This document shows positions 4,940-14,567 of a DNA stretch of 35,947 nt, one piece after another. The stretch is from assembly GCA_029979305.1 (NCBI GenBank), contig JAPOHV010000004.1, positions 1 through 35,947 on the forward strand, in the 5' to 3' direction. Source of the stretch: Mycobacteriaceae bacterium. Its GTDB lineage: Bacteria; Actinomycetota; Actinomycetes; Mycobacteriales; Mycobacteriaceae. Numbering within the stretch: position 1 is the stretch's first letter; every line of letters starts with the position of its first letter. The translations under genes were made by a program, and so were the position numbers. A model generated the notes under the pieces. It ran no database searches. It saw nothing but the letters and a program-made list of their open reading frames with translations, and was not told where the DNA came from.

Positions 4940-6679
4940 TCAGCCGGCGCGCAGCCGGCGGGCCAGCCCGGTCGCCCGGACTGCGCGGCGGCCGACCGCG
5001 GCGCGCAGCTGGTCGGCGGTGCCGATGACCCTGACCTTGTCCCGTGCCCGGGTGACGGCGGTGTAGAGCAGTTCGCGGGTGAGCAACCGGGAGTCCTCCG
5101 TCGGCAGCAGTACGGTGACCTCGGTGGCCTGGCTGCCCTGACTCTTGTGGATCGTCATCGCGTGCATGGTCTCGATGTCGGACAGCCGGCCAGTGGCGAG
5201 TTCCACCGGCCCGCCGGCGCCCGCCATCACCGCGCGCAGCCCGCCGTCGCGCACGACCGCCACCCCGGTGTCCCCGTTGTAGAGACCCAGTCCGTAGTCA
5301 TTGGCGGTGACCAGCACCGGGCGGCCGGGATACCAGGCCGCCCACAGCGGCATGTCGGTCTGCTCGGCCAGCCACCGTTCGATCTGGCGATTCCAGTACG
5401 CCACCCCGTAGGGACCGCGGCGGTGGGCGCACAGCATCCGATGCTGATCCAGCGTCCGCAGCGCCTGGTCGGCATCCCCGAGCACGGCGGCCTCCCGCAG
5501 CTGCAGAGCCTGCGGCACAACGACTTTCCGCAGCACACCCGCGACGTCACCACCGCCTCGCACCCATTCGATGTGATCCCCGCCCGCGGCAAGCACCTCG
5601 ACGGCGGTGTCGGCGTCGCCGTCGCGGATGGCACTCGCCAGCGCACCGATGGAAGCCCCGAACCGATGCGAGGTCGCCAGCCGCGCGACCGGGGAGTCCG
5701 GGACCGTCTCGAGGCCCTCCACCATGTCGGCGAGCACCGCGCCGGCGTCCACCGAGGCGAGCTGGTCGGGGTCGCCCACCAGCACCAGCCGGGACTCCGG
5801 CCTGACCGCCTCCAACAGCCGCGCCATCATCGTCAGCGACACCATCGAGGTCTCGTCGATGACGATGACGTCGTGGGGAAGCCGGTTGTCGCGGTTGTGC
5901 CGGAACCGCGACCTGGTGTCGGGGCGGCTGCCCAGCAGCCGGTGCAGAGTGGTGGCGCTCAATTGCGGGAGCCGGGCCCGGTCGGCGGGATCGAGCCGGG
6001 CGACCTCGGCCTGAACCGCCTCGAGCAGGCGGGCCGCCGCCTTGCCGGTCGGTGCGGCGAGGGCGATCCGCGGTGACGGCCGGCCGTCGAGTTGGGCCTG
6101 CTCGGCCAGCAGTGCCAGCAGCCGCGCGACCGTCGTCGTCTTGCCGGTGCCCGGACCACCGGTGAGCACCGTCAGCGCACGCGACAGCGCGACCTCGGCC
6201 GCGGCGCGCTGTTCGGCGAAGCTGTCCGGGAAGAGCCTCCGGACGTCGGGTGCCGACCCCGAGCGGCGCGCGGCCGTCAGCGCCACGACGTCGTCGGCCA
6301 CCCGGCACTCCTCGATCCAGTAACGGTCCAGATAGAGCAGGCCACCGTCGAGGTGCAGCACCGGCGGATCGGCGGCCAGCACGCTGCGCGAGACGGCGGC
6401 CAGCCACTCCCCTGGGTCGGGCCAGGACAGTTCGGGCTGCCCGATCTGACCGGCGACGGCGCCGAGATCCAGGCAGACCGACCCGCCGCGCACGGCCCTG
6501 ACCACGAACGCGACGGCGAGCGCGACCAGCTCGTCGGACTCCTTGGCCAGCCCGCAGAGCCGTTGCGCGACAAGCACATCAGACGCCTCCAGGACACCGG
6601 CGTCGTTGAATGCCCGCAGCGGCCCGGTGGCCGAGACGCTGCGGCGCCAGTCGGCGTCGTCGGTGGTCATGGTGGTCAT
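4940..6679 (-). CDS. recD: Exodeoxyribonuclease V subunit alpha (RecD)
   Basis: Walker A 'LTGGPGTGKTTTVARLLALLAEQ', 'VIVIDETSMVS', 'LVGDPDQLASVDAGAVLAD' and the C-terminal 'AMTIHKSQGSQ...ELLYTAVTRARDKV' are RecD-type SF1 helicase motifs. ATG 6679 overlaps the TGA of the recB 3' fragment (ATGA). Confidence 0.95.
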   Translation of the reverse strand: MTTMTTDDADWRRSVSATGPLRAFNDAGVLEASDVLVAQRLCGLAKESDELVALAVAFVVRAVRGGSVCLDLGAVAGQIGQPELSWPDPGEWLAAVSRSVLAADPPVLHLDGGLLYLDRYWIEECRVADDVVALTAARRSGSAPDVRRLFPDSFAEQRAAAEVALSRALTVLTGGPGTGKTTTVARLLALLAEQAQLDGRPSPRIALAAPTGKAAARLLEAVQAEVARLDPADRARLPQLSATTLHRLLGSRPDTRSRFRHNRDNRLPHDVIVIDETSMVSLTMMARLLEAVRPESRLVLVGDPDQLASVDAGAVLADMVEGLETVPDSPVARLATSHRFGASIGALASAIRDGDADTAVEVLAAGGDHIEWVRGGGDVAGVLRKVVVPQALQLREAAVLGDADQALRTLDQHRMLCAHRRGPYGVAYWNRQIERWLAEQTDMPLWAAWYPGRPVLVTANDYGLGLYNGDTGVAVVRDGGLRAVMAGAGGPVELATGRLSDIETMHAMTIHKSQGSQATEVTVLLPTEDSRLLTRELLYTAVTRARDKVRVIGTADQLRAAVGRRAVRATGLARRLRAG

Positions 6680-6942
6680 GCGGCCGCCTCGTGACCGTCG
6701 AGCAGGTCGGACAGTTCGGTCACCAGCGCGGCCGGCGGCTGCCAGCCGAACACGCCGGCCGGGTGCCCGGCTGTCAGCGGGGTGGCCGGACCGCACATTC
6801 CGCGGACGAACAGGTACAGCACCCCGCCGAGATGCCGCGACGGGTGGTAGCCCGGCAGCCGCCAGCGCAGGAAACGATGCAGCACAACGCTGTACAGCAG
6901 GGCCTGCAGCGGGTAGTCGGAGTGCAGCATGGCCTCTGCCAT
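6676..6942 (-). pseudogene. recB: Distal recB segment: last ~88 aa of the RecB nuclease domain, separated from the main recB ORF by an in-frame TAG
   Basis: 'MAEAMLHSDYPLQALLYSVVLHRFLRWRLPGYHPSRHLGGVLYLFVRGMCGPATPL...' is the characteristic RecB C-terminus with the QxxxY motif. It lies in the same frame as ORF 6952-9981, with TAG at 6954-6952 and only three further codons (CCC GCC CGG) before ATG 6942. Confidence 0.85.
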
Positions 6943-6951
6943 CCGGGCGGG

Positions 6952-9900
6952 CTAGTAGTCGGCTGCGGTCAGCGGCCGGTCGGCTTCGCCGAGCCAGTTC
7001 GTCTTGTAGTCGGCGACCAGATAGCGGTGGCCGTCGCCGGCGGGGACGCGCAGCACCACGTCGAGGGAGCCGCTGAGGTACCCGCGCAGCGACTGGCGAC
7101 CCAGTGAGGCGTCGGTGAGCCGGTCGACGTAGCTCGCCAGCGGGTCGCCGGGCGGCAGATGCCGGGCAAGCAGCCGGCCGACGTCGGCCAGCCGGACCTC
7201 GGGGGCGGCGCTACGCAGGTCCCCGCCGGCGAGCGGAAACTCGAACTCCAGCTCGCACAACCGATCCGCCAGGGCGATCCGTCGCAGCGTGAGGTCGCCC
7301 GCCAGCGGTCCCAGCGGGGTGTCGTGCATCGGGATCAGCGCCGCGGCCAGGTCGGCGGCGGGAACGTCGACCGGCCACCACACCGAGTGCTTGACGATCC
7401 GGGCCGTCAGTTCGGCGAGCAGGTCCGGGGCCAGCGGGTCGGCGTCCTCCAGCACCGCGTGCACCAGGGTGCCGAACTTGGCGCCGGTGGGCAGCTCGGC
7501 CATCGGCGAGGGGAGGTCGGCCCCCACTTCGGCGGCGGTGCTCAGCGGGATGTCGGCGACCTCGTCGTCGAGTCCGACGACCTCCGGTTCGCTGCTGACC
7601 CCGACGCTCTGCTGGGCCGCGCGCACCAGCCCCGAGTACGAGGTGCGCCGCCAGCTGGTGTCGATGGCCCGATGGAAGTGCCGCGCGGCGAGGCCGCTGG
7701 GCTCCGGACCCGGCGGGATGGCGGCGACAGCCGCGATGTGCGCCTCCTCGACCACCGGGCCGCCGGCCTCCTGCCACTCGCGGAAACGCTCGCGGGCCTC
7801 GACGTCGGTGACGGTCTTGGTCGCGCACTGGTCGGGGATGGCGGTCTCGCCCGGCCGGCGGTCACGCAGCAGCCTGGACAGCCCGCCGTTGGGTTCGTCG
7901 CGCGACGGCGCCCACCACGTCACCACCTGGGCCTGCGCCCGCGTCATGGCCACATACATCAACCGGCTGTCGTCGCCGGCGGCCTCGCGGCGACCGAGCA
8001 CCGAGGCGTCGAGGTAGCCGGCACTGCCCTTGCCGCCGATGTGCAGGCAGCGGGTACCGCCGTCGTGGAACAGGATCTCGTCGCGCTGCTGGACGTTGCG
8101 GTTGAACGCGAAGGGCAGGTAGACGATCGGGTACTGCAGGCCCTTGCTGCCGTGGACCGTCATCACCTGAACGGCCGCTGCGTCCCGGTCGAGGCGTTTG
8201 TTGTGCTCGACCTCGCTGCCGCGCTCCCCGCGGCGGTCCCGCAGCCAGTCCCGCAGGGCGGGCAGCGTCAAATGCTCGCGGTGGGAGGCCTCCTGCAGTA
8301 GCTGGGTGACATGGGTGATGTCGGTCATGTACCGCTCGCCGTCGCGGTGGGACAGCGTGCGGTCTGCCATCCCACTGAGGCGTGCGGCCTCGAACACCGC
8401 GGCCACCCCGCAGGATCGGGCGTGGTCGGCCCATTCCCTGATGGTCTCGGCGACGCTGTCGGTGAGCGAGTCGCCCTGGGAGGCAAGGTCTTCGGCGGTG
8501 CATCCGAAGAAGGCCGTGGTGGCCGCGGCCCGGACGATGCCGGATCGGTGCGGCTGGTCGAATGCCTCCAGCATCGCCAGCCAGTCGTCGCAGGCCTCCG
8601 AGGTGAACACGTCGGAGTCCCCGGTGTAGACGACCGGGATGCCGGCGTCGGTCAGTGCCGAGAAGCAGGCCCTGGCGTCCTTGCGCTTCTCGACGATCAC
8701 CGCGATGTCGCCGGCCCGGATCCGCTCGCCGTCGAAGGTCGCCGGACTGGCGAGCAGCGCGGCGATATCAGCCGCCAGATCCCGGCCGATGTAGGACCGC
8801 AGGTCGTCGATGCCGATCATCTTGTCGCCGCTCTTGCCGAACGTCTCCCGCGATACCACCCGCAGCCGGAACGGGTCACAGGACGGGGCCCCGGCCAGCC
8901 GGCTGCCCTTGTGGTGGGCGTCGACGTCGCGCACCTCGATGCGGGGGTCGCCCAGGCGGGTGCCGCGCAATACGGCCTGCAGGCGCTCGACCAGGGCGGC
9001 GTCGCTGCGCCAGTTGGTTCCCATGGTCTGCTTGTCGCCGGCCGAACCGGCGGCGTCGAGGTAGGTGTGGATGTCCCCGCCGCGGAAGGCGTAGATCGCC
9101 TGCTTGGGGTCACCGATGAGAACCAGGGTCGACGCCCCGGCGAAGGCCTGGTTGATCACCCGCCACTGCACCGGGTCGGTGTCCTGGAACTCGTCGACCA
9201 TGACGATCGGCCAGCGCCGGCTCATCCGGCCCCGGGCCGGGGCGTCGTCGGCCGCCAGGGCGTCGGCGAGGCGGGTCAGCAGGTCGTCGTAACCGAGGAT
9301 GCCCTGTCGGCGCTTGCGGATCTCGATCTCCGCCCGCACGGCCCCGGCGAACTCCAGGCACACCGCGGCATAGCCGTCGGCATCGGCGAGTACCGGCCGC
9401 AACTCGGTGGACGGGTTGCTGACCACCTCGCGGGCGATCTTGAGCGCCTTCTTGTAGGCCAGCAGCGGCTCGTCCTTGTCGCTGCCGAACCGGGCCAGGT
9501 ACAGGTCGTCGACGATCTCGACCACCAACTCGTCGAGGCTCTCCACCAGCTGCACGCCGGAGTCGCTGTCCCCGGCCACCCCCAGCGAGTCCAGCACCAG
9601 CCGGCAGAACTGGTGGATGGTGGCGATGGTGGCGGAGTCGAACCCCGCCAGCGCGTCACCGAGCCGCTCCCGCCGCGCCGCCAGTTCCTCCGGCGTGCCG
9701 GCCAGCAGGTGGCGCACCAGCTCGTTCTCACCGGCGGTGTCGGGCTTACCGAAGGCCGCCAGCGCCTCGGAGATCTGCCGCCGCACGCGGTCCCGCAGTT
9801 CCTGGGTGGCGGCCCGGCTGAAGGTGATCAGCAGCATCTGATCAAGGCCCGCAACACCTTCGGCGATGTAGCGGGTGACAAGACCGGCCAGCGCGAAGGT

Positions 9901-9981
9901 CTTGCCGGTGCCGGCGCTGGCCTCCAGCACGGTGGTGGAACCCGGTTCGGGAAGCGGTCCGAGCAGGTTGAAGGTCGTCAT
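6952..9981 (-). CDS. recB: Exodeoxyribonuclease V subunit beta (RecB), truncated by an in-frame amber codon; ~1009 aa as read
   Basis: 'VLEASAGTGKTFALAGLVTRYIAEG', 'VMVDEFQDTDPVQWRVI', 'LVLIGDPKQAIYAFRGGDIHTY', 'VMTVHGSKGLQYPIVYLPF' and 'DVVLRV...YLVADYKTNWLG' are UvrD/RecB helicase plus nuclease motifs. ATG 9981 overlaps the recC TGA. Confidence 0.95.
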   Translation of the reverse strand: MTTFNLLGPLPEPGSTTVLEASAGTGKTFALAGLVTRYIAEGVAGLDQMLLITFSRAATQELRDRVRRQISEALAAFGKPDTAGENELVRHLLAGTPEELAARRERLGDALAGFDSATIATIHQFCRLVLDSLGVAGDSDSGVQLVESLDELVVEIVDDLYLARFGSDKDEPLLAYKKALKIAREVVSNPSTELRPVLADADGYAAVCLEFAGAVRAEIEIRKRRQGILGYDDLLTRLADALAADDAPARGRMSRRWPIVMVDEFQDTDPVQWRVINQAFAGASTLVLIGDPKQAIYAFRGGDIHTYLDAAGSAGDKQTMGTNWRSDAALVERLQAVLRGTRLGDPRIEVRDVDAHHKGSRLAGAPSCDPFRLRVVSRETFGKSGDKMIGIDDLRSYIGRDLAADIAALLASPATFDGERIRAGDIAVIVEKRKDARACFSALTDAGIPVVYTGDSDVFTSEACDDWLAMLEAFDQPHRSGIVRAAATTAFFGCTAEDLASQGDSLTDSVAETIREWADHARSCGVAAVFEAARLSGMADRTLSHRDGERYMTDITHVTQLLQEASHREHLTLPALRDWLRDRRGERGSEVEHNKRLDRDAAAVQVMTVHGSKGLQYPIVYLPFAFNRNVQQRDEILFHDGGTRCLHIGGKGSAGYLDASVLGRREAAGDDSRLMYVAMTRAQAQVVTWWAPSRDEPNGGLSRLLRDRRPGETAIPDQCATKTVTDVEARERFREWQEAGGPVVEEAHIAAVAAIPPGPEPSGLAARHFHRAIDTSWRRTSYSGLVRAAQQSVGVSSEPEVVGLDDEVADIPLSTAAEVGADLPSPMAELPTGAKFGTLVHAVLEDADPLAPDLLAELTARIVKHSVWWPVDVPAADLAAALIPMHDTPLGPLAGDLTLRRIALADRLCELEFEFPLAGGDLRSAAPEVRLADVGRLLARHLPPGDPLASYVDRLTDASLGRQSLRGYLSGSLDVVLRVPAGDGHRYLVADYKTNWLGEADRPLTAADY

Positions 9982-12900
9982 CGGCCCCCCTGCAGGGCGC
10001 GCAGCACGGGCAGCCACAGCCGTGCCGCGTAGGCGCCCAGCCGGGTGTTCTCACCGGGATGCTCCTCACCCGGGCGGACCGGCTCCATCAGAACCGACAA
10101 CGGCGCGCCGGACCGCCACGCCCGGGCATGCGGAGGGTGTTTGTCCTCGCCGTCGAAGTTGTCGTTGGAGCGCCAGGGGAATCCGGCCGCGTATTCCGGG
10201 TTGCCGCCGTCGATCCGCGCCTGGGCCCAGGCATAGGACGTCTTGAGTGGCAGCGGGATCGGCTCCCGGCGGCCGGCGTCGTAGATCTTCACCAGGTCGC
10301 CCAACATCTCGATCGCGGGGACGGCGGGCAGACCGATGGTCTCGCGGCGGGTGCCCTCGCCCTTGGGCCGGCGGCCGATGCACACCGCCGACCAATCCCG
10401 GCCGGGATCGTGGGCGGCCAACGCCAGCAACGGGATCCACGCGGCGAGCAGATGCTTGCCGCCAAGCTTGGAGTAGGTCACCTCGACCAGGCGGTCGCCG
10501 AAGACCGGCGACACGGTGCCGGTGAGGCGCCGCCCCGAGCCGAGGTCGATGTCGACATCGACGGCGTGCGCCGGGGCGGATCGCAGGCCGGCGGCCTCCG
10601 CCGCCAGTCGGGCGGCCTGATCCCGGATCTTGCGGGCGGTGCGCCAGCCGATCTGGCCGGGGGGCAGTGTGCCGCGGCACCACTCCACGTTGAGCGCCCG
10701 CTCCGGGCTCATCCCGCCGACCATGTCGGCGAGCATGCGGTCGCCGACGGTCCATTCCTCCAATGCGTTGATGTCGACCGGGATCGCGTCCTCGACCCCC
10801 TCGACATCGCTGGGCAGGGTGTAGTCGAGGGCCCGGAAGAAACCCTTCACCGGGTCCCTGAAGAAGGCCGCCAGATCCGCCAGCGAGATGTCGGCGGGCG
10901 GGGGCGGCGGCAACGGGGCGGCGGCGAATCGCGGCCGTTCGTCACGCCGGTGCTGCGCGGCGCGGGCGGCGCGCAGCACCGTCGCATCGAAGGTGAAGGG
11001 CGTATCCGGGGCGGCCTTGATCACCGCCCCGGGTTCGACGTTTCGAATGTCGAAGGGCTGCAGTGGATGCCGGGTCAGGATGTCACCGCGGACGGTGCTC
11101 TCGGTGGTCGCGTCGAGAGCGTCGAGCAACTCCGCGAGCGGCACCGCCGGCGGCCGGCTGTCGCCGGTGTACTCGTTGGCGCCGGTATAGGTGATCACCA
11201 GGGTCTCGGTGGCGGCGCACACCGCGTCGAGCAGCAACTGACGGTCCTCCGAGCGGACGTCGCGTTCGCCGGTGCGCGGTTCGCGGGCCAGCGCGTCGTC
11301 GCCGTCGGCGGCCCCGGTGCGCGGGAACACGGTGTCGTCGAGCCCGACCAGGCACACCACCCGGTGCGGCACCGACCGCATCGGCACCATGGTGCACACC
11401 GTCAGGGTGCCGGTGCGGAAATTGGCCCGGGTGGGACGCCCCGCGAGGTGGCGGTTGAGCAGCTGCTGGATGTCGGGCAGCCGCAGCGGGATGCCCCCGC
11501 GGGAGCCGGCCCGGGACAGCACGTCGTTGAACTCCCGTTCCAGTTGGCTGAGCTGCCAACCGTCCTCGTCGTCGACCCGGGTCAGGAGTTTGACCCCGTC
11601 GACGACGGAGCACAGCCAGTCACGCAGCGGGCGGACGCCGGTGAGCGACTCCACCACCCGCTGCAGGCGGTCGACGAACTCGCCGAGCCGGCCGGCCAGG
11701 TCCACCCTGTTGCTGCCGACGTCGTCGAGCGGGAGAGTGGCGTCGATCCAGGCCTGCGAATCGTCCGACAGCGCCACCCCGGCCAAGATCCGGTCCAGCC
11801 CGAAACGCCAGGTGTGATGAACGAAGCTGAGCCCGTACGGCTTTCGGTGTTCCCTGTCGAAGCCCCACCGGATGTTGGACTCCCGCACCCAGTCGGTGAT
11901 GTCGTCCAGGTCGTCGTCGGTGAGGCCGAAGCGGGCTCGTACCGGCTCGGCCTGTACCAGGTTCAGGACCTGACTGGCGGTGACCCGGCTGCCCGCCAGG
12001 GTGAGCAACTGGGAGGCAACCGCGAGCAGCGGGTTGGTCTGCACCAGCGACCGGTCGGCGAGCCGCACCCGGAGCCGGTGGGCGGGGTGTGCGTCCGGAA
12101 CCACCTCGCCGAGACCGAAGTCCGCCGCGATCAGTGGGGCGTAGGTCTCGATGTCGGGGCACATCACCAGGATGTCGCGGGGCTCCAGGGTCTCGTCGTC
12201 GGCCAGCAGGCCCAGCAGAACCTCGCGCAGCACGTCGACCTGCCGGGCCGGGCCGTGGCAGCTGTGCACCTGTACTGAGCGGTCGCCGGCGCGCAGCGAA
12301 CGGCCCTGCGGCCGAACGGCATCGGCGGCGATGTCGGCCTGCAGCCAGCCCAGCAGGGTGTCGGGGTGGGTGCCGGACGGTAGATGCTCGTCGGTGGCCG
12401 TGTCGTCGGGCAGGCTCCGCTGCAGATCACGCAGATCACGGCCCAGGGTGGCCAGCAGCGGGTGGGCGACGCGGCGGTGGCTGGTGTCGTCGCGTCGCGC
12501 GATGACGCCGTGCAGACCGGTCAGCGAATCCCACAGCCGGGCACTGGGGTGCGGCAGCCACAGATGCACCTCGTGGTGGGCGGCGAGCGCGTCGAGCAGT
12601 TCGATGTCGGTGACGGCCAGCCTGGTGTAGCCGAACAGCGAGACTCGCTCCGGCAGATCGCAGCCCGATTCCTCAAGCTGGACAACGGTTTTGGCGTGCC
12701 GGATGTGCGGAGGGTCGATGGCCATCAGCTCGACCAGGCGCCGCCAGAGTTCGGGCTGCCAGGCCAGGTCCTCGGCGAGTCCGTCGTCCTGGCGGGCCAG
12801 CCAGCCGGCCGGCAGGCCCGGGCGCTGCCGGGCGTAGGAGGCGAACAACCCGGCCAACCGGCGGGCCACCGCGTAGCGGCGGGCCTGGCGCAACTCGCGC

Positions 12901-13274
12901 TCCTCGCCGTCGGTGAAGTGCCCGAGGTGGGTGGCCAGGGTGCGGCACCACGGATCGTCCAGGTGCGTGTCGATGACCTCCAGCAGCGGCCAGGTCATGG
13001 CATCGGGCGACCAGGGGTCGTCGTCGCGGGTGCCGGCGATCTCAGCGATCAGCGACGCCGGCGAGCGGAACGCCACCCCGGCACACACTCCATCGGCATG
13101 CGAACCACGGCCCAGCACGTGGGACAGCCGCTGGGACAGCCACCGCTCCACCCCGCGGGCGGGGACGACGACGAGATCCTCGGCGAACGGATCGGGCGGC
13201 GGCGTGGCCAGCAGCTTCCCCAACCCGTCCGCGAGGATGTCGGTGCGTTCCGCGCGGTGTACATGCAAGGCCAT
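9978..13274 (-). CDS. recC: Exodeoxyribonuclease V subunit gamma (RecC)
   Basis: ~1098 aa from ATG 13274: 'MALHVHRAERTDILADGLGKLLATPPPDPFAEDLVVVPARGVERWLSQRLSHVLG'. Also 'RDILVMCPDIETYAPLI' and 'HRVVCLVGLDDTVFPR'. First gene of recC-recB-recD. The ORF-track extension to 14207 is antisense to the hydrolase-OsmC gene. Confidence 0.94.
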   Translation of the reverse strand: MALHVHRAERTDILADGLGKLLATPPPDPFAEDLVVVPARGVERWLSQRLSHVLGRGSHADGVCAGVAFRSPASLIAEIAGTRDDDPWSPDAMTWPLLEVIDTHLDDPWCRTLATHLGHFTDGEERELRQARRYAVARRLAGLFASYARQRPGLPAGWLARQDDGLAEDLAWQPELWRRLVELMAIDPPHIRHAKTVVQLEESGCDLPERVSLFGYTRLAVTDIELLDALAAHHEVHLWLPHPSARLWDSLTGLHGVIARRDDTSHRRVAHPLLATLGRDLRDLQRSLPDDTATDEHLPSGTHPDTLLGWLQADIAADAVRPQGRSLRAGDRSVQVHSCHGPARQVDVLREVLLGLLADDETLEPRDILVMCPDIETYAPLIAADFGLGEVVPDAHPAHRLRVRLADRSLVQTNPLLAVASQLLTLAGSRVTASQVLNLVQAEPVRARFGLTDDDLDDITDWVRESNIRWGFDREHRKPYGLSFVHHTWRFGLDRILAGVALSDDSQAWIDATLPLDDVGSNRVDLAGRLGEFVDRLQRVVESLTGVRPLRDWLCSVVDGVKLLTRVDDEDGWQLSQLEREFNDVLSRAGSRGGIPLRLPDIQQLLNRHLAGRPTRANFRTGTLTVCTMVPMRSVPHRVVCLVGLDDTVFPRTGAADGDDALAREPRTGERDVRSEDRQLLLDAVCAATETLVITYTGANEYTGDSRPPAVPLAELLDALDATTESTVRGDILTRHPLQPFDIRNVEPGAVIKAAPDTPFTFDATVLRAARAAQHRRDERPRFAAAPLPPPPPADISLADLAAFFRDPVKGFFRALDYTLPSDVEGVEDAIPVDINALEEWTVGDRMLADMVGGMSPERALNVEWCRGTLPPGQIGWRTARKIRDQAARLAAEAAGLRSAPAHAVDVDIDLGSGRRLTGTVSPVFGDRLVEVTYSKLGGKHLLAAWIPLLALAAHDPGRDWSAVCIGRRPKGEGTRRETIGLPAVPAIEMLGDLVKIYDAGRREPIPLPLKTSYAWAQARIDGGNPEYAAGFPWRSNDNFDGEDKHPPHARAWRSGAPLSVLMEPVRPGEEHPGENTRLGAYAARLWLPVLRALQGGR

Positions 13275-13349
13275 CGGGCACCACCGTAGACCGGCCCTCC
13301 GACAGCTCCGGGTCATTAGACTCGGGTCCTCATCACCCGGGAGGCACCG

Positions 13350-14567
13350 ATGCCGGCCGAACGTTTCGATTTCCGCAACGCCCAGGGTCACCAGCTGACC
13401 GGCTTGCTGGAGTCGCCCGGCCGCGAGCCGGCCGGCTACGCGCTGTTCGCACACTGCTTCACCTGCAGCAAGGACAGCCGCGCGGCCAAACGTATCGCCG
13501 ACGCGCTGGCCGCCCGCGGCATCGCGGTGCTGCGCTTCGACTTCACCGGCCTGGGCGCCAGCGAGGGCGACTTCGCCAATACCGACTTCTCCTCGAACGT
13601 CGCCGACCTGGTCGCCGCTGCCGATCAGCTGCGCCGGGTCCGCCGGGCGCCGGCGCTGTTGATCGGACACAGCCTGGGCGGGGCCGCGGTGCTGGCGGCG
13701 GCCGGGCGCATTCCCGAAGCCTCGGCGGTAGCGACCATCGCCGCCCCGTCGGACCCCGGCCACGTCACCAACCTCTTCGGCGACCGGCTGGCCGAGATCC
13801 GCGCCTGCGGCGAGGGTGAGGTGACCCTCGGCGGGCGACCGTTCCGCATCCGCCGCGAATTCCTCGACGACGTGGCGGAGCAGACCCTGCTGGCCGACAT
13901 CGCCGGGCTGGGCAAGGCGCTGCTGGTGCTGCACTCGCCCACCGACCAGGTGGTGTCGATCGACAGCGCGAGTGCGATCTTCACCGCCGCCCGGCATCCC
14001 AAGAGCTTCGTCTCCCTCGACGACGCCGACCACCTGCTGGCCCGGCGGCGCGACGCGGTCTACGCCGCCGAGGTGATCGCGGCGTGGGCCGCCCGCTACC
14101 TGCCGTCCGCCGAGCCCGAACCGGACACCGACGCCGGGCCGCGGACGGTTCGGGTCGCCGAGACCGGGGTGGGTACGTTCCAGCAGACGGTCACGGTGGG
14201 CCCGCACCGGCTGCTGGCCGACGAGCCGGTCGAGGCCGGCGGCCTGGACACCGGGCCGTCACCGTACGACCTGCTACTGGCCGCGCTGGGCGCGTGCACG
14301 TCGATGACGCTGCGGCTCTATGCCGACCGCAAGGGCATTGCGCTGCAACGTGTCTCGGTTGAGCTGTCGCACAGCAAGATTCACGCCGCCGATTGCGCGA
14401 CCTGCGAGACCGCGACCGGAAAGGTGGACCGGATAGACCGGGTGATCACCCTCGACGGCGACGTCGACGAGGCGGTGCTGGACCGGATGCTGGAGATCGC
14501 CGACCGCTGCCCGGTGCACCGCACCCTGACCTCCGAGATCGAGATCAGGACGTCCAGATCCCGGTGA
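13350..14567 (+). CDS. Bifunctional alpha/beta hydrolase-OsmC family protein
   Basis: N-terminal alpha/beta hydrolase ('ALFAHCFTCSKDSRAAKRIADALAARGIAVLRFDFTGLGASEG', nucleophile 'GHSLGGAAVL') fused to an OsmC domain ('SPYDLLLAALGACTSMTLRLYADRKGI', 'RCPVHRTL'). Confidence 0.93.
   Translation: MPAERFDFRNAQGHQLTGLLESPGREPAGYALFAHCFTCSKDSRAAKRIADALAARGIAVLRFDFTGLGASEGDFANTDFSSNVADLVAAADQLRRVRRAPALLIGHSLGGAAVLAAAGRIPEASAVATIAAPSDPGHVTNLFGDRLAEIRACGEGEVTLGGRPFRIRREFLDDVAEQTLLADIAGLGKALLVLHSPTDQVVSIDSASAIFTAARHPKSFVSLDDADHLLARRRDAVYAAEVIAAWAARYLPSAEPEPDTDAGPRTVRVAETGVGTFQQTVTVGPHRLLADEPVEAGGLDTGPSPYDLLLAALGACTSMTLRLYADRKGIALQRVSVELSHSKIHAADCATCETATGKVDRIDRVITLDGDVDEAVLDRMLEIADRCPVHRTLTSEIEIRTSRSR

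Follow-up and report, generated by a model that had tools for sequence, protein, structure and literature searches.

In Escherichia coli, the RecB nuclease domain can be deleted (residues 930-1180; RecB-delta-Nuc CD), and the resulting complex still binds DNA ends and is amenable to purification. What remains without this domain is a helicase that is impaired in initiating unwinding (PMC13101046). The point substitution D1080A abolishes both nuclease activity and RecA loading (PMC2828478). In Pseudomonas syringae, a RecB protein lacking most of the nuclease domain still supports repair of UV damage (PMC2828478). Mycobacteria divide the labour: RecA-dependent recombination relies mainly on the AdnAB helicase, and RecBCD serves single-strand annealing (PMC8151990).

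The stretch of DNA analysed here (the window, 35,947 nucleotides) is contig 233 of the draft genome of an uncultured Mycobacterium (2.61 Mb in 249 contigs, 72% complete, 3.5% contamination). Its recB gene is interrupted by one in-frame TAG. The preferred explanation, given a probability of about one half, is that a single nonsense substitution arose very recently in one lineage or strain of mycobacteria.

The interrupted recB gene and its neighbours

The recB frame (6676..9981, minus strand) runs from an ATG at 9979-9981 to a TGA at 6676-6678, and comprises 1101 codons with one internal TAG; translating 9984-6679 on that strand likewise yields a frame that is open save for one internal stop. 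Around this stop the minus strand reads GAC TAC TAG CCC GCC CGG ATG, with the TAG at 6954-6952 and the ATG at 6942-6940. The TAG is codon 1010, and costs RecB its last 92 codons. The part before it (6955..9981, minus strand) specifies 1009 residues: a complete helicase; the linker; and the beginning of the nuclease domain, including D991 and K993. This part alone scores 747.5 bits against RecB family TIGR00609 (cut-off 696), and contains both the UvrD-helicase (PF00580) and UvrD_C (PF13361) domains. The part after the TAG (6679..6951, minus strand) continues in the same frame for 91 codons, remains constrained, and carries the QxxxY motif (Q1026 and Y1030). The two parts match consecutive stretches of TIGR00609, up to position 1094 and then 1100-1175 of 1175. 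A helicase-nuclease frame of 1101 codons, conserved on both sides of the TAG, rules out coincidence. The in-frame TAG inside recB is thus confirmed as a true reading of the sequence.

Alignment with structure 1w36_B places the TAG at the position of E. coli RecB residue T1094, after K1082 and before Q1110 and Y1114. D991 and K993 are equivalent to E. coli D1080 and K1082, and Q1026 and Y1030 to Q1110 and Y1114. An earlier note on this DNA had placed a TAG at 6952-6954 between the DxK and QxxxY motifs, with a complete helicase and the start of the nuclease upstream and a normal carboxyl terminus downstream, up to the recD overlap. Frame translation, the structural alignment and the TIGR00609 matches bear out both statements. 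Under the standard code the chain stops before QxxxY, and a complete nuclease domain (D, DxK, and QxxxY) is not contained in one polypeptide.

The flanking genes are intact, and provide the operon setting expected for RecB. On one side, recD (4940..6679, minus strand) is full length at 579 residues (TIGR01447, 1-597 of 597); its ATG (6677-6679) overlaps the recB TGA in the sequence ATGA. On the other, full-length recC (TIGR01450, 1-1061 of 1063) starts near 13270, inside an open frame at 9978..14207 on the minus strand. A second, intact copy is rejected, as the draft genome yielded a single recB match. (A plus-strand open frame of 405 residues, at 13350-14567, looks by eye like a fusion of an alpha/beta hydrolase and an OsmC-like domain.)

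Relatives, constraint and the age of the stop

RecB matches from 40 relatives, recovered with the carboxyl-terminal 128 residues as query, contain no internal stop; the sole other stop listed in that search lies in a weak secondary match in genome G022. Internal stops are likewise absent from the other full-length RecB genes, about 150 among the matches listed from the 397 Mycobacterium genomes searched (lower-scoring matches lie outside that list). The earlier note had proposed aligning RecB with its relatives. In that alignment every relative, at more than 100 loci, has a sense codon at the site (D, T, G, S, A, E, Q, or H), and the TAG is private to this genome, the one genome by which its species is represented in the comparison. 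The column ranks among the 3% most variable of RecB. Thus, the relatives examined have intact copies, and the position itself is not critical. A search of viral contigs for the same DNA found no match.

Loss of RecBCD appears to be recurrent in the genus. About 35 of the 397 genomes (counted from the table) have no match of RecB strength, and these include 11 single-contig genomes that are 99-100% complete. The complete genomes without RecB indicate that recB loss is tolerated in Mycobacterium.

The relatives themselves deserve brief comment. The close relatives by RecB include small-genome metagenome assemblies, several of them named for lakes. One close-relative group (G000, G024, G342, G218, G135, and G151) comprises assemblies of 2.5-3.2 Mb with completeness of 72-97%, suggesting small-genome mycobacteria. 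Two records titled 'Bifidobacterium breve' MAG (L032 and L053; CAMDFY010000060.1 and CAMCWJ010000187.1) contain mycobacterial recB, so that the titles look wrong; the carboxyl-terminal part of the gene in these records is 83-84% identical to that of the window.

Codons downstream of the TAG show no sign of decay. In comparisons with the eight closest relatives, dN/dS is not raised after the TAG (0.09-0.17, versus 0.15-0.29 before it). All 53 of the columns that are invariant in 29 relatives are retained. Lineage-specific changes, in columns conserved among the four closest relatives, number 2 of 72 after the TAG versus 31 of 666 before it. The marks of a decaying pseudogene were sought in the gene, and neither relaxed constraint after the TAG nor any disruption beyond the one stop was found; the undecayed sequence rules out an old pseudogene. 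If the codons after the TAG evolved neutrally, they can have been free of constraint for no more than about 4-8% of the terminal branch leading to the window, a rough bound that rests on an assumed branch dS of 0.25-0.45. The TAG, if real, would therefore be younger than roughly that fraction of the branch. The absence of decay means that the TAG is very young, or is not real, or that the downstream part is still used.

Mutation, error and recoding compared

A TAG private to one genome, with undecayed sequence beyond it, favours either an error or a very recent mutation. The earlier note had listed sequencing error, recent nonsense mutation, readthrough, and a split subunit made by reinitiation. 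This was the right set, and the first two of its members are favoured, but positive evidence for the other two did not emerge. Overall, its interpretation is partly supported.

The nonsense substitution explains a TAG that is unambiguous in the sequence; that is missing from the 40 relatives found with the carboxyl-terminal query, the more than 100 aligned loci, and the roughly 150 full-length RecB genes listed; that is followed by codons constrained as in intact relatives; and that falls in a gene whose loss the genus tolerates. Nevertheless, a base error, or the call of a minor strain, in a fragmented draft would look identical, and the species is known here from one genome. It is quite plausible, if somewhat short of an even chance, that the TAG is an artefact of assembly or base calling, such that the organism has a sense codon at the site and an intact RecB. 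The fragmentation, incompleteness and contamination of the draft fit this explanation, as do the undecayed sequence past the TAG and the lack of a TAG in all relatives examined. Moreover, 2.4% of single substitutions in recB yield a stop, and an assembly of this size is expected to contain about 0.06 to 5.6 false stops for consensus errors of 1e-6 to 1e-4. At 1e-5 the expectation is about 0.6, which weighs against the nonsense substitution.

The quality of the same assembly bears on both explanations. A comparison of 800 kb of the genome against reference proteins from relatives took in about 98 kb of conserved coding sequence. Within these 98 kb, a mid-gene stop occurs in recB alone, and frameshifts were not found. 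The remaining flagged stops, judged from alignments, fall at the ends of genes, ahead of the real starts, or in antisense frames that are spurious. A generally poor assembly is thereby ruled out. The lack of a second interruption speaks for the nonsense substitution and against a high rate of base error, as does, against an artefact, the position of the TAG away from the contig end. A very high error rate is thus unlikely, although a single error is still compatible with these data.

Unlikely, by comparison, is a functional arrangement: a leaky or two-piece RecB, still able to assemble, that is produced through readthrough of the TAG or through restart at the ATG that follows 9 nt later. The part after the TAG is indeed still constrained, but recency alone predicts the lack of decay equally well. 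The TAG falls in a highly variable column that accepts many residues, yet it is confined to one genome: readthrough or recoding would be expected to show as a stop conserved at this site in relatives, and none of the other genomes examined has one. The in-frame ATG (6940..6942, minus strand) begins 9 nt past the TAG, and restart there is physically possible. Its Met is ancestral, however, being present in 18 of 29 relatives, so this codon was not gained for restart. RNA folding past the TAG is average (z = 0.11), with no structure beyond chance, which rules out programmed readthrough via RNA structure. TAG is an ordinary terminator in this genome: among 55 conserved genes that end where their counterparts in relatives end, 11 use it, which rules out a change in the genetic code. 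A scan of the window and the first 50 contigs retrieved from the genome revealed no suppressor tRNA. The chance-level folding, the ordinary use of TAG, and the ancestral Met count against readthrough or a reinitiated split subunit as the earlier note had raised them. Such a RecB is required by none of the findings, and retains a small remainder of probability. The fuller proposal, that a mycobacterial lineage makes a leaky or two-piece RecB by readthrough or restart at a tolerant position in the nuclease domain, such that most RecBCD would be a nuclease-free helicase and a small part complete, is more doubtful again.

The division of labour between AdnAB and RecBCD in mycobacteria (PMC8151990) suggests a further explanation: selected loss of the RecB nuclease with retention of the helicase, tolerated, along the lines argued in the earlier note, since AdnAB performs the main end resection. 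The truncation does remove parts of the nuclease only. Nevertheless, the TAG shows no sign of fixation or of age, and selected loss is very improbable. The AdnAB genes themselves offer evidence neither way. The PDDEXK_1 domain, AdnA, and AdnB were sought in the 72%-complete assembly and not found, whereas PDDEXK_1 or AdnAB is present in most close relatives. The assembly also lacks the channel gene that adjoins AdnA in a close relative, containing only paralogues at 26-27% identity. Since this usual neighbour is missing too, the AdnAB locus probably lies in an assembly gap. (One relative, the 89%-complete G135, has an intact RecB and no PDDEXK_1 match; its AdnAB may be absent or unassembled.)

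A predicted truncated RecB and its known counterparts

If the nonsense substitution is real, translation would halt at recB codon 1010. Both helicase domains would be preserved in the product, as would the initial portion of the nuclease domain with the two catalytic residues of DxK. The QxxxY helix would be lost, along with the final core strands of the nuclease fold. Such a truncated RecB is predicted to be devoid of nuclease activity and probably also of a RecA-loading surface, which would turn RecBCD into a helicase or lead to its loss. Translation of recD is normally coupled to that of recB through the ATGA overlap. It may drop as a consequence of the TAG, or be rescued by restart at the downstream ATG.

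At present the case amounts to a single base, as yet unconfirmed, in a single draft genome, and without read support a TAG in recB is an ordinary case. If real, it would be a natural separation-of-function allele, and could probe why mycobacterial RecBCD needs its nuclease. It also shows how private stops can be screened: against relatives; by decay past the stop; and by the rate of interruptions in the same assembly.

In several respects the locus resembles described examples. Bacterial pseudogenes of recent origin that carry one premature stop show the same combination of a lone stop, otherwise constrained sequence and occurrence in one genome, and nothing sets this case apart from them. As a member of the TIGR00609 family (the beta subunit of RecBCD, or exonuclease V), the window RecB shares domain order and motifs, as well as the recC-recB-recD gene order with its ATGA overlap; its identity to the closest mycobacterial relative among the matches listed is about 83%. 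Unlike the family, it has one internal TAG, at codon 1010. Like E. coli RecB-delta-Nuc CD, the window RecB would lose its nuclease and keep its helicase domains. The E. coli construct lacks the whole nuclease domain, whereas the window RecB would be cut within that domain and left with an incomplete fold. The P. syringae truncation is a plasmid-made deletion, unlike a natural nonsense codon, and demonstrates that a nuclease-less RecBCD can stay proficient in UV-damage repair in some species.
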